From positions 13,218,023 through 13,282,022 of the forward strand of contig CM026433.1 in NCBI GenBank assembly GCA_014871385.1: a DNA stretch of 64,000 nt. Reading direction: 5' to 3'. Positions 4,095-55,428 of this stretch are shown here, one piece after another; within the stretch, counting starts at the first letter, position 1; each line of letters starts with the position of its first letter. Source of the stretch: Ceratodon purpureus. Taxonomy: Eukaryota > Streptophyta > Bryopsida > Pseudoditrichales > Ditrichaceae. The position numbers and the translations under genes are program-made. Below the pieces are notes generated by a model. That model did no database searches and was not told the origin of the DNA. It saw nothing but the letters and a program-made list of their open reading frames with translations.

Positions 4095-4358
4095 ACCATA
4101 ACACCATAGCAGATTCGGTCCTCAGCAAACAAATATTTATTTTATTTGAAAAATTAAGGTTTGTCCATTAAATACTAAATTTCTCAATTTTTGTTTTTTG
4201 TCAAAAAATCTATAAAAATAACCTTAAATGGCTTAGAAATAACAAAATATTGCGAAAATTAATTTATTATATTTTTGTTCTTCGTCTTAATATTTTTTAA
4301 TTTTTTATATTTTTTATATTTAGAATATTTAAGAACAAACATGCTTTGGTGTTACGGT
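4095..4358 (+). mobile_element. MITE family A, copy 1 (264 bp, terminal inverted repeats)
   Basis: The left terminus is ACCATAACACCATAGCAG and the right terminus is the inverted CATGCTTTGGTGTTACGGT. The whole element aligns end to end with 41449-41714 in inverted orientation and with the two outer parts of 33682-34870. It contains the intact sequence ACCTTAAATGGC at about 4222-4233, the empty counterpart of the insertion site used in copy 3. There is no coding capacity. Confidence 0.8.
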
Positions 4359-14449: not shown

Positions 14450-15511
14450 ATGTCGAAGCCGTCGTCGACGTTTGCAGGTGTGAGCACGGCGACCGTGACT
14501 GTGGTGGCCGGATACGCGCTCTGCTCGAGCTTGCTCTCCGTGATCAACAAATACGCCATTACTTACTTCCCTTACCCTGCGCTTCTGACGGCGCTGCAGT
14601 ACTTGACGTCTGTGATAGGCGTGGTAGTGGCAGGATGGACCGGGGTGATCTCACACAACAAGTTCGTGTGGGAGACGGCGCGGAAGTTCTTTCCTGCCGC
14701 GCTTGTGTTTTACCTCGCCATTTTCGCGAACACTAACCTTCTGAAACACGCGAATGTGGACACATTTATTGTGTTTCGGTCTACGACGCCGCTGCTGGTC
14801 GCCGTTGCTGATACCGTGTTCCGGAAGCAGCCGGTTCCATCGACATGGACATTTGCATCGTTGTTCGTCATCCTGGGAGGCGCCGTGGGGTACGTCATCA
14901 CCGACTCGCAGTTCAACGTTACGGCGTACTCGTGGGCGGTGGCGTACCTGGTGGTGATCTGCACGGAGATGGTGTACGTGAAGAAGATGGTGACGGACAT
15001 TGATCTCAACACATGGGGGTTCGTGTTCTACAACAACTTGATATCCCTCATGCTGTCGCCCATCTTCTGGATCCTCATGGGCGAGTACAAGATGCTCATG
15101 GTGGGAGCACCGGCGTTCGAGAATCGGCTCGTCAGTGTCTTCGCCGTGGGGTTGAGCTGCCTCTTCGGCGTGGCCATCAGCTTCTTCGGGTTCGCGGCGC
15201 GCAAGGCCATCTCTGCCACGGCGTTCACTGTCACTGGAGTGGTGAACAAGCTCCTCACCGTTGTCGTCAATGTGGCTATCTGGGACAAGCACGCGTCTAA
15301 CCAGGGCCTCGCGTCGCTGCTTGTCACCATCGTCGGCGGTGTCTTGTACCAGCAGTCCACCACAAATGCCCCTGCCAAGCCCGCCGATGTGGTTATCCCT
15401 CCTCCAACTGATAACGCAGACGAGGAACAAGGATTACTTCTCGGCGACATGAAATCAACAGATTCACAGAACTCCTCCGAGCAGGCGAAGTCGGACGTGG
15501 CCCGGACTTAA
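14450..15511 (+). CDS. GFT1: GDP-fucose transporter of the Golgi membrane, intronless, 353 aa
   Basis: This nucleotide-sugar transporter of the NST-KT/TPT family is expected to exchange cytosolic GDP-fucose for lumenal GMP in the Golgi, feeding fucosylation of cell-wall polymers and glycoproteins. The full reading frame aligns from memory with Arabidopsis GONST4/GFT1: GYALCSSLLSVINKYAITYF (residues 21-40), FANTNLLKHANVDTFIVFRS (about 91-110), and ISATAFTVTGVVNKLLTVVV (about 254-273). Around ten hydrophobic segments and an acidic, Ser-rich cytosolic tail are visible; total length is typical. The ATG at 14450 gives the family N-terminus. The gene has no intron and is markedly GC-rich at third codon positions compared with the minus-strand genes nearby. 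The family call is firm; the substrate is by homology. Confidence 0.92.
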   Translation: MSKPSSTFAGVSTATVTVVAGYALCSSLLSVINKYAITYFPYPALLTALQYLTSVIGVVVAGWTGVISHNKFVWETARKFFPAALVFYLAIFANTNLLKHANVDTFIVFRSTTPLLVAVADTVFRKQPVPSTWTFASLFVILGGAVGYVITDSQFNVTAYSWAVAYLVVICTEMVYVKKMVTDIDLNTWGFVFYNNLISLMLSPIFWILMGEYKMLMVGAPAFENRLVSVFAVGLSCLFGVAISFFGFAARKAISATAFTVTGVVNKLLTVVVNVAIWDKHASNQGLASLLVTIVGGVLYQQSTTNAPAKPADVVIPPPTDNADEEQGLLLGDMKSTDSQNSSEQAKSDVART

Positions 15512-33535: not shown

Positions 33536-33681
33536 TTTTCCAATACAAAGCACAACAAATACAAAACTGACATACATAACAACAATTAAGTATTCATATT
33601 TAGGTGCTGCAACCACAAAAACTAGCAGCTCTCACTTTGCAAGAACCTCATTACTGATCTTTGCCTGAAACTAACACCAAT

Positions 33682-34870
33682 ATTGTAATACCATAGTAGG
33701 TTCATCACATGGCAAACAAATATTTATTTTTTTGAAAAAATAAACTTTGCCTCCCAAAAATTGAATTTTTAAATTTGATTTTTTAACAAAAAATCACTAA
33801 AAATGACCTTAACCCCTAAAAATCCAACCGTTTTTGGAAGCTCCAAGTTCCAAAACTGTCATTTTTGACCGCTTTGTGGGGAATGACGATTTGGACCAGT
33901 TTTTTTTCTTTCTTTTTTTAGACATCTAACCGTAAGATCTTGTACTTTACCCTCTTTAGAAGTACTGATGAAATTTTCAACCATTGTATGTTTACCATTT
34001 GTGAGATTATAATGTTCAAGTTGCAGCAAAAGTTTTTTTTTGGTATAAACCGAACGACATAGGATAAATAATGAAAATGGGGACTTGATGTTCATTATCC
34101 CAAACATTTTGCTCATATTTTTTTTCTATGTAGGTAATCAAGTTGGATACCTCCATGCAAACTTTTAGCAACTTATTCCTTTTTTAGGACCTTCATAAAA
34201 ATTATTTTCTAGAAGCGGGTCTAAAACCGTTGATATCGTAAAACATGTATGACGTTACGTATACTTGGTTTTAGAAAAATCTAAAAAGTGGTTAGGTGCC
34301 TTTATACATTTTTTATTTTTGGGAAAAATTATTTTTGAAAAATTTCAGAATCTCAAATTTTGACGAATTTTGAAAGAAATAATTCAAATATTTGAAGCTC
34401 GTCTTTGTAATTTTTGGAGGCTGCCCTTGTAAAATTGGTTTATTTTTTGACTTGGGTCTCTTTGGAGTTTGAGTGGTGGTTTGGTTATGAAAATATTTCA
34501 AGATTTTTTTTAAAAAAAAACCCTAATTTTAAGCTGCCCGTTTTGGACTTGAAACCTAAAATTTCTAGATGAAGGTCTTAAAATTGGAATTTGGCTTTGA
34601 AAATTTTACCGCATACACTTTGCAGTATAGGGAGCATCCAGTAAAAATCTTAGGCAAAAATATGATTTTAACCCCTTCATCTTGGCTGCCCAAAAGAGCA
34701 AAAAGCCATTTCGGCTTTCCTGGATTTTTAGGGATTAAATAGCTTAAAAATAATTAAATCTTGCAAAAACTAATTTATTCTATATTTATTTTTTTGTCTT
34801 CAATTTTTTCTAATTTTTTCGTTTTTATTTTTAGAATTATTTTTTGAACGAACTTGCTATAGTACTATTG
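33682..34870 (+). mobile_element. MITE family A, copy 3, split by a nested insertion
   Basis: The outer parts (about 33682-33812 and 34735-34870) align with the left and right halves of the 264-bp copies at 4095-4358 and 41449-41714. The left end carries TAATACCATAGTAGGTTC and the right end GAACTTGCTATAGTACTA in inverted orientation. The two halves meet at the TTAA that is intact in the other copies (ACCTTAAATGG) and is here duplicated around a 922-bp insertion. Termini are more diverged than in copies 1 and 2. Confidence 0.75.
33813..34734. mobile_element. piggyBac-like element, 922 bp, nested in MITE A, TTAA target duplication
   Basis: Termini are CCCCTAAAAATCCA and, inverted, TGGATTTTTAGGGA, with flanking TTAA at 33809-33812 and 34735-34738. 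The uninterrupted MITE A copies supply the empty site with a single TTAA. This matches piggyBac-type insertion. Only short frames occur inside (33859-34116, 34313-34501 minus), so it is non-autonomous and needs a transposase from elsewhere. Confidence 0.8.
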
Positions 34871-36360
34871 TATACTACTTCTTAGTCAAGTCCAACTCTT
34901 CAACACTTTCACCATCACACTACCGCGAAAGGCGTCATTTCTCAATCCTTCAACCGCGGACGAGAAAATTTTAGCCAATAATGGCCCAATGAACAAGCCC
35001 CATTGTTTGTCTAATATGTCGCTTCTCATTCTCTCTTGAACTGCTCCATGAAAACCATGTCGTCAGGTCCTATATTTTTAAGGAATGAAAAACGACACCT
35101 TTTGTGGTAGTGTCAGAAAAAACCCATCTATAAGTGTAGCAAGCATCATATGTACAATTGTGTTGCCCAGATTGTATGCACATCCTCCGCTCCGCTCCGA
35201 AAGCACTAGTAGTAGAAGCGTCGTTTTTAATTCTAAAAAACACGGCACCTTAACGCTTTTGATCGATAAGTGTGCTCGTGTCCGGTCCCCATTGGCCCAT
35301 CCGCAGCCAGCGGACCCAATTCTTGTTTGTTGTGACTGATTTGAACCAACGTCCCGATCAAAAATGACGCTTCTCCTTGCAGTGAAGGAATGTGCTCATA
35401 TGAATCAAACCCGGCCAACTGGTTTGCCTTCACATGGCGCTCCAGGCAAGACCTGTGTGATTTGAACTCATCCGGATTCTCATGGCTCTGAGGATCACTT
35501 TGGATGGCATGCACATTGAGTACGATTCTAGTCCGGGTGTATCAGTCGATTGTTTGCAATTGAGGCTTCGAAAATAGTGCACTCTTCACCTTCCACCTGT
35601 AATTCTAAGCCATTACAACTTTCCACCAACACTTGTGTTTTACCTTCAAGCTGTTCTTAGAAGAAAACCGAAGAGCTGAGTGGGCAACGAGTTAGAAGCT
35701 CTGTAGTTTGCCTGGCGATGAAGACCTAAGATTGTTATATCAACCTAGTGAGAAAAATTCTCAGTGATGCGTTACAGAGATTGAAACTAAGATTGGTATT
35801 GAAAGGGCGTATTGTAGTGCCGATCATGTTCTTCACATCTTTATCGGATCTTTAAGAATATTCTAGCACTTCAAAGGCACATTGTATGACATAATTGAGT
35901 CACTTGAGTTATCAATACTGCGGTGGTGAACAGAATCTGATTGATTATGATTAAGAGTGCATGCCACCTTCCATTCTAAGGCAGATTTTTTCTGCTCTGA
36001 TGTTTTGAGATGTAACATATTTTCTTTTCTCTTGGTTGATGAAAACATTGCAAAAGGAGAGAAGAACATTTTGTTATTGCTCAAGGGACTACGTTTAATT
36101 GCATAACCAGTGAACCTTGGTGAATTGAGGGATAGCTTGGTGTTATGCGGGGCCCAAGTTTGAAATATTGTTAGGAAGTGCGGAAAATGGTTCAAATCGT
36201 CAAAGCAATTGAAAAAGTAATCAAATCATTCAATCTCAGTAACCTTTTACTGCTGCCTTGAACTCAAACTGTACATGTTTTTAAACGCACAACATAATGT
36301 ACATGCTCTTCGACCACCGAGATGTTCCCGAAATCTCCTCGACTACTTCGACCCTAAATT
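34871..36360. other. Intergenic stretch downstream of P450 gene A
   Basis: Moderate GC. The minus frame at 35233-35514 has short resemblances to P450 C-terminal text (PDEFKSHR then GFDSYEHIP, compare PDEFIPQRF and GFDSYELIPFG of gene A). It could be a decayed tandem fragment of the neighbouring P450. No other gene is seen; the last ~100 bases are probably gene A's 3' UTR. Confidence 0.35.
35233..35540 (-). pseudogene. Fragment of a P450 C-terminal exon (tandem duplicate of gene A)
   Basis: The minus strand reads IQSDPQSHENPDEFKSHRSC, then ANQLAGFDSYEHIPSL, then GTLVQ. The final exon of P450 gene A, 1 kb away, has IHRDPAVYESPDEFIPQRFV, LNHLSGFDSYELIPFG and NTLVT in the same order and similar spacing. 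The heme-binding Cys region is destroyed. This supports a local duplication followed by decay. Confidence 0.55.
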
Positions 36361-39213
36361 TTAACATGACACTACATGATCTCTGGGCTTCGCCATCAAG
36401 TAAAGGGGCTCTTTCCTACAAACTGTAATCCCAAACGACTCTGTCATATCGAAAGACTCAATACTTTGCCCATGGGGAAGAGACCAGTCATAGCTGTGAA
36501 GCAGGTTACCTAGCATCAATGTGACCAAAGTATTGCCCAGATTGTAACCCGGGCACATTCGTCGACCCACTCCAAATGGAATCAGCTCGTATGAATCGAA
36601 TCCTGATAAATGGTTCAATTCAGGGCGATCAACAAACCTCTGTGGAATAAACTCATCGGGGCTCTCATACACGGCTGGGTCGCGATGGATAGCACAGAGG
36701 TTCAGCATCAGTCTTGTACCTGCAGGGATTTGGTAACCATATGCTTGAGCTGGTTGAAATGATTCCCTGGGAGGAGCCAGAGGCGCAGGTGGGTGCAACC
36801 GGAAGGTTTCTTTCACAATGGCTTGTAGAAATGGAAGATTTGGGAGGTCTGATTCTTGCATGAGGCGGTCGTTGCCTACCACAGTGTCAAGCTCGGCTTG
36901 TGCTTGCTTCAGGAGTTCAGGTCTCAGGATGAGTTCTGCCATGGCCCACTCTACTGTTGTTGAACCAGTTTCTGTTCCGGCGTTAAATAGTTCCTGAAAC
37001 ATTAGCCCACAGAGTCAGATTCACATATTAGCATTGAAAGTATGTTTAGTATGTGTTAATCTAAATTAGAGGCTACATAGAGACTTGCTCTGTTACAAGG
37101 AAGGATATTCTCGTCATTTAGAGCCACAATCCAGAGCCCTTCTGCTCCCTAATTTCAACCAAATCTACGTTGGCATCACAGATGAAATGGGTGCATATCA
37201 TAGTGTTTGGTTGGGGTTAGAGGGCAGTTGATATTACAGGCACATCTGCCTTAGTACAAGAAATTTGTATCGTTGGAAATAAATCATACATTCTTTAGAA
37301 GAGGTTGGGTGGTGATAGCATGACAATAGCTCTGCTTGATTCAGAAGGAGTTGTCTCTGCCTTATTTCAAAAGCAGTTGGCATTGGCAGAGTTGGTTATG
37401 CCAATAATTTGGATATGAGGAAACCGAAAGGGTACTTGATTTCTTACCAAGAGAACCAAGGTCAGTTGCTCGTCAGGCAAAGGCTTTCCACCGTCCAAGG
37501 GCTCCTCTGACAGCATGTCCACAAAATCAGACACATACTCGTCTTGGTCGTTACTTCCCCTCTCTTTGGCACGCTCTCTGTGCTTCTCCACCTCCAACAT
37601 CTTGCCTCCAATTCTGATTGCATCATCACGGATACCCTTGAAGATCTTATTGTAACCTTGCAGCTTCGTGAGGAAGGTTAAGTTTGGGATAAAATCGCTG
37701 ATTACAGCAGCAAAATCTACCCTTGTCATGGCTGCAATCAACCGCTCGAAATCTGCCTTCTCTTCCTGACTTGCACCTCCCTTTCCAAAGTACCTGTCCC
37801 AAAAAACCAAAGAAAAAGCAGAGGGTATGAAGGCAAAAGTCATGTTATTCAATGGTGGACTGGAAAGAGGTTGAAAAGCTTATATGCGCTTCTTCTGAAA
37901 GGACTTGAAATTATTACCTTTTGTTTATCAGCATCCTGGTCATGACATTGGCAGAGACCTCATAAAGCCAGCTCTTCACATTCACAGCTTCTCCCTTCTC
38001 GGAAGTCTCTAAAAGGATTGCCAGCATATTACGAAGTTCCTCTTCTCTCACACCTCGGTAGGACGCATGACGCTTTGCAGAAAACAGTTCACTGCTGCTA
38101 AACTTCCTCAGTTGGCGCCAGTAAGGTCCATAAGGAGTCAAAACGAGCGTCTTGTAGCTGTCTGAAATAATTTCAAAGTATAACCCCTTTGGCCGAGAAG
38201 AGAAGCTCACGTCGTTGGTTTGAAACACCTCCTTGGCCGCTGCAGCGGTGGAAATTATCAGGCATGGCACCGACCCTGGCAACAAAAAGGAGGCGTAGAC
38301 ACACTCGATAAGAATTACATCAAAAAATAAGAAGATAGAAAAGGCAACATTGTTTAAAAGTCACTTGTTATAATATTCTCTCCATGTTCCTTCCTCATGA
38401 CCCAAGGATAAACATGAGAAGAGCCTTTTGATTCTGAAAATTTATCATAGTAAAACTAAAGCATGACAAAGGCTAATGATTATCATTCTCTCATCTGATA
38501 GTATGAGTTTCTCTCTGGAACAAGAGTTTCATATGTAATCCCCTGTGAGTCTCAACTTTCCCACCAATCTCCAAAACTAAACATCTACACAAGTCACACG
38601 CCTAAGAAAGGAAAATTTCATAAGTGACAAGCATTCAAACTTCAGGCTTGTTGCGAATTGTGAGACAAGTAGGAAAATGCAACAAATTCCTCATGAGGAA
38701 CCCACTATAAACTGCCAATGTTATGATGGATATGGAATAGAGAACTTGGTGAACAAAATGGAGACTCTTGAAAACAAAATAAATGTAATAGTACAGAGTC
38801 AACAATCGCTACAATCACAAGGGATTACACACTGATTTGAAACTAAAGAACACTTCTCCCTATCACGGGAGAAACAAACACGAACTGTATCTGGATAATA
38901 CACACATACCTAAGCGGAGATACATAATCCCTCCATATTTGGAAGCCAGCCTTTGCAGAGCATGATGAGGCATCCCATCTGCCAAGGCGAGCAGGTTGCC
39001 AAGAATGGGCCATGGTTTCGGTCCCGGTGGAAGAGTACTCACACTCTTCTGCTTCTGCGACTGGGCTCGAAGGTAAACAGACACCAGCAATGCAGCAAAC
39101 AACGTTGTAAACACGGTTGCAAAGTCAGAAGGTGAGCTCGGCCGCCATGCCAGTACCCCAGTGCTCCCAAAGTGAGTGGCATTGCCAGGACTGGAGCTCA
39201 CGCTCAACGCCAT
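36361..39213 (-). CDS. Cytochrome P450 (gene A), CYP71-clan type, 4 exons, 546 aa
   Basis: Exons: 39213-38910, 38275-37918, 37793-37448, 36993-36361; phases close. The protein should be a heme-thiolate monooxygenase anchored in the ER by an N-terminal hydrophobic segment (about residues 25-50), followed by the proline-rich hinge LPPGPKPWPILGNLL. The I-helix oxygen-binding motif AGTET is at about 341-345 in FNAGTETGSTTVEWAMAEL. The K-helix E-x-x-R is at 398-401 (KETFRLHPPAP). FIPQRF is the PxRF motif, and the heme loop is FGVGRRMCPG with axial Cys near 483. The I-helix EWA and HPPAP place it in the plant A-type (CYP71 clan) with broad similarity to flavonoid and phenylpropanoid hydroxylases. 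The substrate cannot be read from sequence. A decayed copy of its last exon lies 1 kb downstream. Confidence 0.9.
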
Positions 39214-41448: not shown

Positions 41449-41714
41449 ACCGTAACACCATAGCAGGTTAGTTCTTAAATAATTCTAAATACCGAAAACA
41501 AAAAAATATAAAATTATGAAGACATAAAAATAAAAATAGAATAAGTTATTTTTTTGCAATAATTTGTTATTTCCAAACCATTTAAGATCAATTTTTCTGA
41601 TTTTTTGGTAAAAAATGAAATATGAGAGATTCAGTTATTTAGAGATGAACCTTAATCTTCCAAAAAACATAAATATTCGTTTGCTGAGGACCGAACCTGC
41701 TATGGTGTTACGGT
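41449..41714 (-). mobile_element. MITE family A, copy 2 (266 bp, inverted orientation)
   Basis: Termini are ACCGTAACACCATAGCAGGT and the inverted CCTGCTATGGTGTTACGGT; about 19 of 20 end bases match. It aligns over its full length with copy 1 in the opposite orientation, including GGTCCTCAGCAAAC near one end. AAT occurs on both outer flanks (41446-41448 and 41715-41717) and may be the target duplication. No coding capacity. Confidence 0.8.
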
Positions 41715-45440: not shown

Positions 45441-51546
<6,106 letters not shown>

Positions 51547-53380: not shown

Positions 53381-55428
53381 TTATTTGTTAAAGAGACGAG
53401 GATCGACACGCAGCTCTCCATCCAAAAACATGTCTGGAGAGTCCTTCCACGCAACATAAGTCTCGCTTAATTTTGCGCCGGCAGGAAGGCGCCAGTTAAT
53501 GCATTGTAAGCATAAGGCTAATCCGTAGTTAAGAGTGGTCATGCCGAGGTTGAGTCCAGGGCATCCACGCTTGCCATAACCAAAAGGAATGTAGTGAAAA
53601 TCACTTCCTTGCACCGTGAGGTTCGAGCCGATGAAGCGATCAGGGGAAAATTCCAGGGGTCTCTCCCAGAAGGAAGGATCTCGGCTCAAAGCGTACAGGT
53701 TGATGAGCACGGAGGATTTCGCAGGGATGTGGTATCCAGCAACTTCGCAGGGCTCGAAATTCCCGTGGGGGATGAGGAGCGGGGCTGGTGGGTGGATACG
53801 GAGCGTCTCCTTAACAATGTTCTGGATGAGGGGAAGGTTCGGCATGTCGGATTCTTCGACTAGCCGGTCCCTGCCAACGACTTCATCAAGCTCGTCAAGT
53901 GCTCTTTTGTGGAGAAGTGGTTGCTTTAGAAGCTCTTCTATGGCTTTTCCAAGGCCTCTGGAGATCGAGTCACTTCCAGCTATCAAAAGGGCCTGCCATC
54001 AACACAGTTCGAATCCTTCAAACCGCCACTACATACCATTCAGAAATACAAGAAATTGATGCACTCGTGGGAGACATGTGCTTAAACAAGCAAGGTGAAG
54101 AAAACATACGAAGACAACGGCCATTTGCTGGTCATCATTCAGGCGATCCTCGCCCTCAAGTGATAAGATCTTGCTCATGATGTCTCTTTCGTTTGCGTCA
54201 TTCTCAATCTCCTCCGGCGACCATCTGCTCATTTCCAGTCTTTTCAGCTCAATCAAATCCGTGATACTCTTTCGCAGCTGGACCTCCACATCCCTGAGTT
54301 CGACCTCAATGCCTTGCAGATCGAGCCATCGAATTGATGGTAGGAGGTCACTGATATTGATTTTTGCCACAACCTTGACCGCCTGCACAAGACTTACCTA
54401 TTCTCAAAATGTCCACTGGGAAGAGGGTGACACAAAGAACAAGCATCGTTTCCAAATCAAACGATTCAAGGTACATCTCCTTGTTACAATTCAATTACTA
54501 TCTTTCAGCGGACGTCTTTCGAGCCTTCGAAATGGTTTAGTCACTAACCTTTATGAACGTGAGCGCTAAGGTCTCAATCTCCTTGGGGACGACCTTGCCA
54601 CCACAATGCCTTCCAAAGATCATGCACATGGACAGGTTCAGCCCCAGGGATGATACGGCCATTCTGAAATCGACTCTGTGACTTGCATCCAACTCTTCAC
54701 GTATCCCTTGCAACATTTTCAGCATCTACACTCTCTGCCAGTACAAGAATAAGTCCCTAAACATAAGGAGCTATAGACGAAGAATTATTCACGACCCTGT
54801 ACCTTGAATTTCGCCTTGAATATTCCAAATAAGAGAGATGGTTGCAAGTGTGGTACCCTAAAACTGCATAATACGATTATTTGCCATGGTTTAACCTAAA
54901 GAGATGGTCAATTGTTAAGTCCAGAGAAGCACTAACCTGATCCTTTCGAAGCCCCTTCGACGCAGCAATCTTCTTGGGTGACAACAGCTCCATTACGAAC
55001 ATACGCCGCAGCCGCTGGTACAACGGATTGCTGGCCGGCATTGATATGATCGAGTTTCCTTTAAAAGAGATGTAGTCGCGCACCACGCTCACAGGCCGGT
55101 TTGCAAATTCCTGATCGTGCGTCTTTAGGAACTCCATCGCCATCCGCGCACTCGACACCACCACGTAGGGTCTCGATCCCATCCACAGCAGCATGAGCTC
55201 CCCGTATTTCTCCCCGAGATTTGCAAACATAACCTCTGGAGGTTGCCCTAGCGCCAGAAACGGCAAGCACCCCACCACTGGCCATGCAGGCGGCCCCGGC
55301 GGCAGCTTCAGTCGCCTCTTGGTGATCGTGCCCATCGCCGCCACCGTCATCCCGGTAACAACAATGGTAATTACAAACCATATCCATGACGAGCTTAACT
55401 GCAACTGATCTAGCACTCCCCGGTCCAT
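53381..55428 (-). CDS. Cytochrome P450 (gene B), plant A-type, 4 exons, 517 aa
   Basis: Exons: 55428-54937, 54725-54549, 54382-54110, 53992-53381; all introns phase 0, unlike gene A (phases 1, 2, 0). An N-terminal membrane anchor (about residues 14-35) is followed by LKLPPGPPAWPVVGCLPFL. The I-helix has AGSDS (about 319-323) with an acidic residue and Ser instead of the common D/E-T. It lacks the EWA tripeptide of many A-types (RGLGKAIEELLKQP). The K-helix E-x-x-R is at 376-379 (KETLRIHPPAP). PDRF and the heme loop FGYGKRGCPG, with axial Cys near 458, are intact, so the enzyme should be functional. It belongs to the CYP71 clan; family and substrate are undetermined. The upstream region holds an unusual array of exon-like repeats. 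Confidence 0.9.

Follow-up and report, generated by a model that had tools for sequence, protein, structure and literature searches.

The piggyBac element of Trichoplusia ni and the piggyBat element of Myotis have in common a TTAA target that is duplicated on insertion, short terminal inverted repeats and a transposase of the DDE_Tnp_1_7 type with a DDD triad. The piggyBac-derived MITEs of animals are short non-coding sequences, present in high copy number, whose ends are common to transposase-bearing elements. To our knowledge, piggyBac is uncommon in land plants. In their passages on the superfamily, two papers say, with no plant species named, that it occurs in plants (PMC10140906; PMC10813416), another names PiggyBac among the plant DNA-transposon superfamilies (PMC10794571), and a fern repeat table includes 1,230 PiggyBac annotations (PMC6890710). 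Among the matches listed for piggyBac together with moss terms there was no paper on the resident piggyBac elements of mosses, and the passages on piggyBac in PMC5505980, which treat the insect-derived element as a marker-removal tool that had at that time not yet been tested in Physcomitrella, mention no resident moss element. Here we describe a 922-bp element of the moss Ceratodon purpureus which resembles piggyBac and piggyBat in its TTAA target and duplication, in its short (14 bp) terminal inverted repeats and, through larger relatives with the same termini, in a DDE_Tnp_1_7 transposase with a DDD triad. It differs from both in its host and in its termini (CCCCTAAAAATCCA). A LEAFY DNA-binding exon of the genome agrees with a moss host: it matches 4bhk, the LEAFY of the moss Physcomitrium, at 239 bits, and the next entry at 178.

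The element lies in a 64-kb window (the whole stretch of DNA that was analysed), where it splits one copy of another repeat, MITE A; two further copies of MITE A in the same window are unbroken (Table 1). MITE A is about 265 bp long and has ends of type CCGTAACACCATAGCAGG beside TA, suggesting that it is itself a TA-duplicating (Tc1/mariner-like) MITE. After removal of the 922-bp element and one TTAA from the split copy, and reverse-complementing of the unbroken copy in the opposite orientation, all three copies aligned throughout and the TTAA of both empty copies fell in the same column. This bears out the original prediction of an insertion at a duplicated TTAA inside MITE A, with a single TTAA kept at the matching place in the unbroken copies; the empty sites are paralogous ones, which need never have been filled. 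The limits that had been proposed for MITE A (33682–34870) were right at the end and one base off at the start, which is best read as 33683.

Each of the two terminus strings of the element occurs once within the window, and the 14-bp inverted repeat which they form contains one mismatch (CCCC... versus TCCC..., reading inward). We scanned the window for inverted 14-mers with up to two mismatches, lying 80–2,500 bp apart and having an identical tetranucleotide at both borders. The only TTAA-bounded pair, from 385 TTAA sites, was that of the 922-bp element, while the control tetranucleotides AATT (607 sites), TATA (288) and ATAT (415) gave one, two and one pairs respectively, all of them A+T-rich and all with two mismatches. 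No open reading frame of 150 aa or more is present within the window copy and the transposase is therefore not encoded there. Ordinary plant genes lie downstream of the insertion, namely two cytochrome P450 pieces (36361–37002 and 53381–53986) and Thi4 (thiazole synthase; 50357–51409), and a TPT-family transporter frame lies upstream (14450–15511); the scan behind these identifications covered 7 of the window's 18 frames that reach 150 aa.

Table 1. Coordinates of the insertion, of the MITE A copies and of long transposase-bearing relatives. Plain positions are those of the window; positions with a contig prefix are those of the genome assembly.
Feature	Position	Strand	Basis or remark
Left target-site duplication TTAA	33809-33812	+	Sequence, MITE A alignment
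922-bp non-autonomous piggyBac element	33813-34734	+	TTAA on both sides; ends CCCCTAAAAATCCA/TGGATTTTTAGGGA
Left terminal inverted repeat CCCCTAAAAATCCA	33813-33826	+	Genome counts, fetched copies
Right terminal inverted repeat	34721-34734	-	Reads TGGATTTTTAGGGA on + strand
Right target-site duplication TTAA	34735-34738	+	Sequence, MITE A alignment
Host MITE A copy split by the 922-bp element	33683-34870	+	TA at 33681-33682 and 34871-34872
Unbroken MITE A copy, empty paralogous site	4095-4358	+	Single TTAA at matching place
Unbroken MITE A copy, empty paralogous site	41449-41714	-	Opposite orientation; single TTAA at matching place
Long transposase-bearing place, fetched as L074	C11:3121548-3127448		
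Long transposase-bearing place	C13:14717981-14724048		
Long transposase-bearing place	C3:8957449-8963607		
Long transposase-bearing place	C6:70892581-70898706		
Long transposase-bearing place	C6:69561130-69566943		

The termini recur throughout the 362-Mb assembly (151 contigs). The exact 14-base terminus was found 479 times (235 + 244) and is preceded by TTAA in 435 cases (215 + 220; 91%), leaving 44 of the 479 without an adjacent TTAA; reversed-pattern controls gave no occurrence, either for the terminus alone or with TTAA. Among 100 places listed of the 435, there were 23 inward-facing neighbour pairs no more than 8 kb apart. Nineteen of these span 925–935 bp and the others 589, 839, 2,393 and 4,484 bp. 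A single pair of neighbours is directed outward. For 54 of the 100 places the list contains no exact terminus that would complete an inward-facing pair within 8 kb; at some of these (e.g. L012) the second terminus is mismatched, as it also is in the window copy.

A DNA search with the 922-bp element gave 2,389 first-look candidates. Scores were obtained for 40 of them, namely the window copy and 39 others with 93–94% identity over query positions 1–930 (3–930 for one of them). TTAA adjoins the left end in 29 and the right end in all of the 30 copies that were fetched, TGAA replacing one TTAA in L015, and pairwise divergence among these copies has a median of 5.5% and a maximum of 7.6%; the sample leans towards young and intact copies because it holds the best-scoring candidates for a query containing TTAA. 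The count of 435 in 479 is free of this query bias, but covers exact termini only. Together, the two sets agree with the expectation that genome copies would end at these same termini and adjoin TTAA. The 60-bp flanks of the fetched copies form 29 distinct groups on either side. Two copies, L033 (C8:420067-420992) and L037 (C8:442104-443029), have flanks in common and differ by 0.1%, and on these grounds look like a recent local duplication rather than two insertions. No empty sites for the other 29 copies were present in the fetched DNA, where the sole match spanning a join, for L031, was to the flank of that same copy, read on the opposite strand.

The 4,484-bp pair of termini encloses a transposase. 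This element (L069) has a perfect 18-bp TTAA plus terminal inverted repeat (TTAACCCCTAAAAATCCA) at both ends and carries on its minus strand a 693-aa frame matching PF13843 (E 3.2e-75; domain at C2:24710524-24711657). Over about 380–400 residues the frame is similar to piggyBat (PDB 9c0f, E 2.9e-26) and piggyBac (6x67, E 4.7e-24), and it matched no further PDB sequence at E 0.001. A search with the whole L069 element yielded 75 matches from the 40 candidates scored out of 2,554 at first look; these include six places, L069 among them, at which both ends and the transposase stretch lie within 6.2 kb. In the five others (Table 1) the two ends, with the transposase stretch between them, lie within 5.8–6.2 kb, in pieces that are 88–99% identical, and the remaining matches were partial. 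The open frame was examined in two of the six places, L069 and L074. The latter is 5,901 bp long, with exact termini and TTAA on both sides, and contains an 826-aa frame matching PF13843 (E 4.2e-74); further frames upstream in it may represent transposase exons or a second gene, and the one of these that was scanned, of 192 aa, has no Pfam match. The 14-bp inverted repeats that are imperfect in the window copy are thus exact in both of these elements. The catalytic DDD triad (D341, D427 and D544) is, together with D547, invariant in all 26 aligned stop-free domains, which comprise L069 and 25 of 30 further loci (L039–L068), the five loci with stops having been dropped. A frame for the DDD-type piggyBac transposase which had been sought between these ends is therefore present in L069 and L074.

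At 4.5–6.2 kb, the transposase-bearing moss elements are larger than the complete piggyBac elements of bees, for which a passage of PMC10140906 gives 2.23–3.52 kb. L069 differs from the five other long places in having a shorter right part and an extra, nested G+C-rich stretch of about 424 bp (877–1301 of the fetched locus; 354–778 of the element). Separate copies of this stretch are found at C4:7782647-7783071 and C6:13268070-13268500, and it is possibly a small mobile element in its own right. The 2,393-bp pair of termini (L073) has identical ends and is without the part of L074 that holds the catalytic domain, such that the family includes a series of shortened forms, among which that of about 922 bp is the most frequent of the exact pairs listed.

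Comparison of the 922-bp element with these relatives shows that it is related to them well beyond its termini. Its left 358 bp match L069 at 88% and its last 52 bp at 94%; for L074 the corresponding values are 85% over about 418 bp on the left, 69% over about 205 bp on the right and 92% for the last 52 bp. Across L069, L074 and L073, the left 188–418 bp match at 85–91%, and the right 205 bp, under laxer scoring, at 68–69% (E 1e-22 to 1e-24). Other copies of the 922-bp family give similar figures against L069 (left 352–354 bp at about 90–91%, right 206 bp at 70–74%). The middle of the element (query positions ~419–725) finds only scattered 41–55-bp pieces at 67–73% in the three long or shortened relatives, the unmatched part amounting to about 460 bp in the stricter comparison with L069 and about 300 bp with laxer scoring. 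Because of this poor match, a simple internal deletion of the L069, L074 or L073 copies is inadequate as an origin. The element is therefore like the piggyBac MITEs of animals in being short, non-coding, abundant and in sharing its ends with transposase-bearing elements, and differs from them in an interior of about 300 bp that has no good match in the fetched long copies. A length of 922 bp is also long for a MITE.

The same divergent middle might be taken to mean that the long elements are composites, formed when an unrelated piggyBac gene inserted into a 922-bp repeat of non-piggyBac origin, and L069 does indeed hold a nested stretch of extra DNA. However, that stretch contains no transposase, and the five other places, which lack it, show the left end, the transposase stretch and the right end in the same sequence. 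Apart from the CCCCTAAAA termini, there is no other TTAA-bounded 14-bp repeat pair (up to two mismatches) around the L069 transposase. Moreover, the long elements have 0.64–0.8 kb of right end in common, of which about 205 bp remain in the 922-bp element, as expected of a deletion derivative. We consider a composite origin to be very improbable. An equally slim chance attaches to an origin in another superfamily, with the TTAA a coincidence of the boundary: duplication of TTAA also occurs in Kolobok and Sola3, and the TTA duplicated by PIF/Harbinger leaves an ambiguous boundary when followed by A, but in L069 and L074 these very termini enclose a piggyBac frame with its DDD triad, and TTAA precedes the great majority of the exact termini in the genome, so that this reading is largely refuted. 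Kolobok and Sola3 are accordingly alike in their target duplication and different in their transposase, and all three candidates were set aside; in the frames scanned (the main frames of L069 and L074 and the 192-aa frame), PF13843 was the only transposase match and none of the Kolobok, Sola3 or PIF/Harbinger type was found.

The 922-bp element is almost certainly a non-autonomous member of the piggyBac superfamily, moved by the transposase of a 4.5–6.2-kb relative and pasted at a TTAA within MITE A. The TTAA duplication is evident from comparison with two empty paralogous sites, TTAA adjoins hundreds of ends in the genome, and the outer parts of the element recur in elements with a piggyBac transposase frame of the DDD type. 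These three lines of evidence support the reading of the locus as a product of TTAA-specific transposition, which had been put forward from the empty and filled sites. Since termini and outer parts are held in common with transposase-bearing elements, the 922-bp family is likely to be non-autonomous with an autonomous partner, and a transposase family of the L069/L074 type probably moved its copies. By analogy with known piggyBac biology, this transposase would have acted on the common ends, cutting the 922-bp element from elsewhere and pasting it into the TA-flanked MITE A with duplication of the TTAA. The sequences suggest that the larger elements are active now or were so recently, and the 922-bp form itself presumably goes back to an older autonomous copy, since diverged, that lost its interior by deletion.

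The wider genome contains many more transposases of this type. There are at least 116 matches to PF13843 (DDE_Tnp_1_7) above the curated cut-off, from 998 first-look candidates, and none in 14 control genomes of unspecified kinds; "uncommon", the term used in the original prediction for piggyBac in land plants, therefore does not describe the genome of C. purpureus. Diversity was sampled in 30 loci fetched of the 116 (L039–L068), to which L069 was added. The 26 stop-free domains fall into nine groups at 80% and six groups at 60% single-linkage identity, with a minimum pairwise identity of 35%, and on the basis of this diversity several piggyBac families seem to coexist in the genome. At E 0.01 none of the 30 loci showed a match to the 922-bp element, and none had TTAA-bounded 14-mers (up to two mismatches) within the 1,500-bp flanks, which would not reach the element ends at the spacing between domain and end seen in L069 and L074.

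With the 922-bp family, a known kind of element gains a clear new example in a plant group for which piggyBac is poorly documented. The family links a high-copy moss repeat both with a named superfamily of transposases and with partners of identical ends that bear a transposase. Its interest, which is moderate, is owed to its host and its abundance. Mosses are established genetic models. More tentatively, the genome may perhaps carry a large, diversified and recently mobile population of native autonomous piggyBac elements with MITE families of its own. If that is true, no such population would have been well documented in a land plant before, and piggyBac transposases native to plants could be drawn from it. 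Resident moss transposases would matter for marker removal, because insect piggyBac is discussed as a tool for that use in the passages of PMC5505980 concerned with it. Together, the 922-bp family and its partners would allow the transposition of native piggyBac elements to be studied in a land plant.
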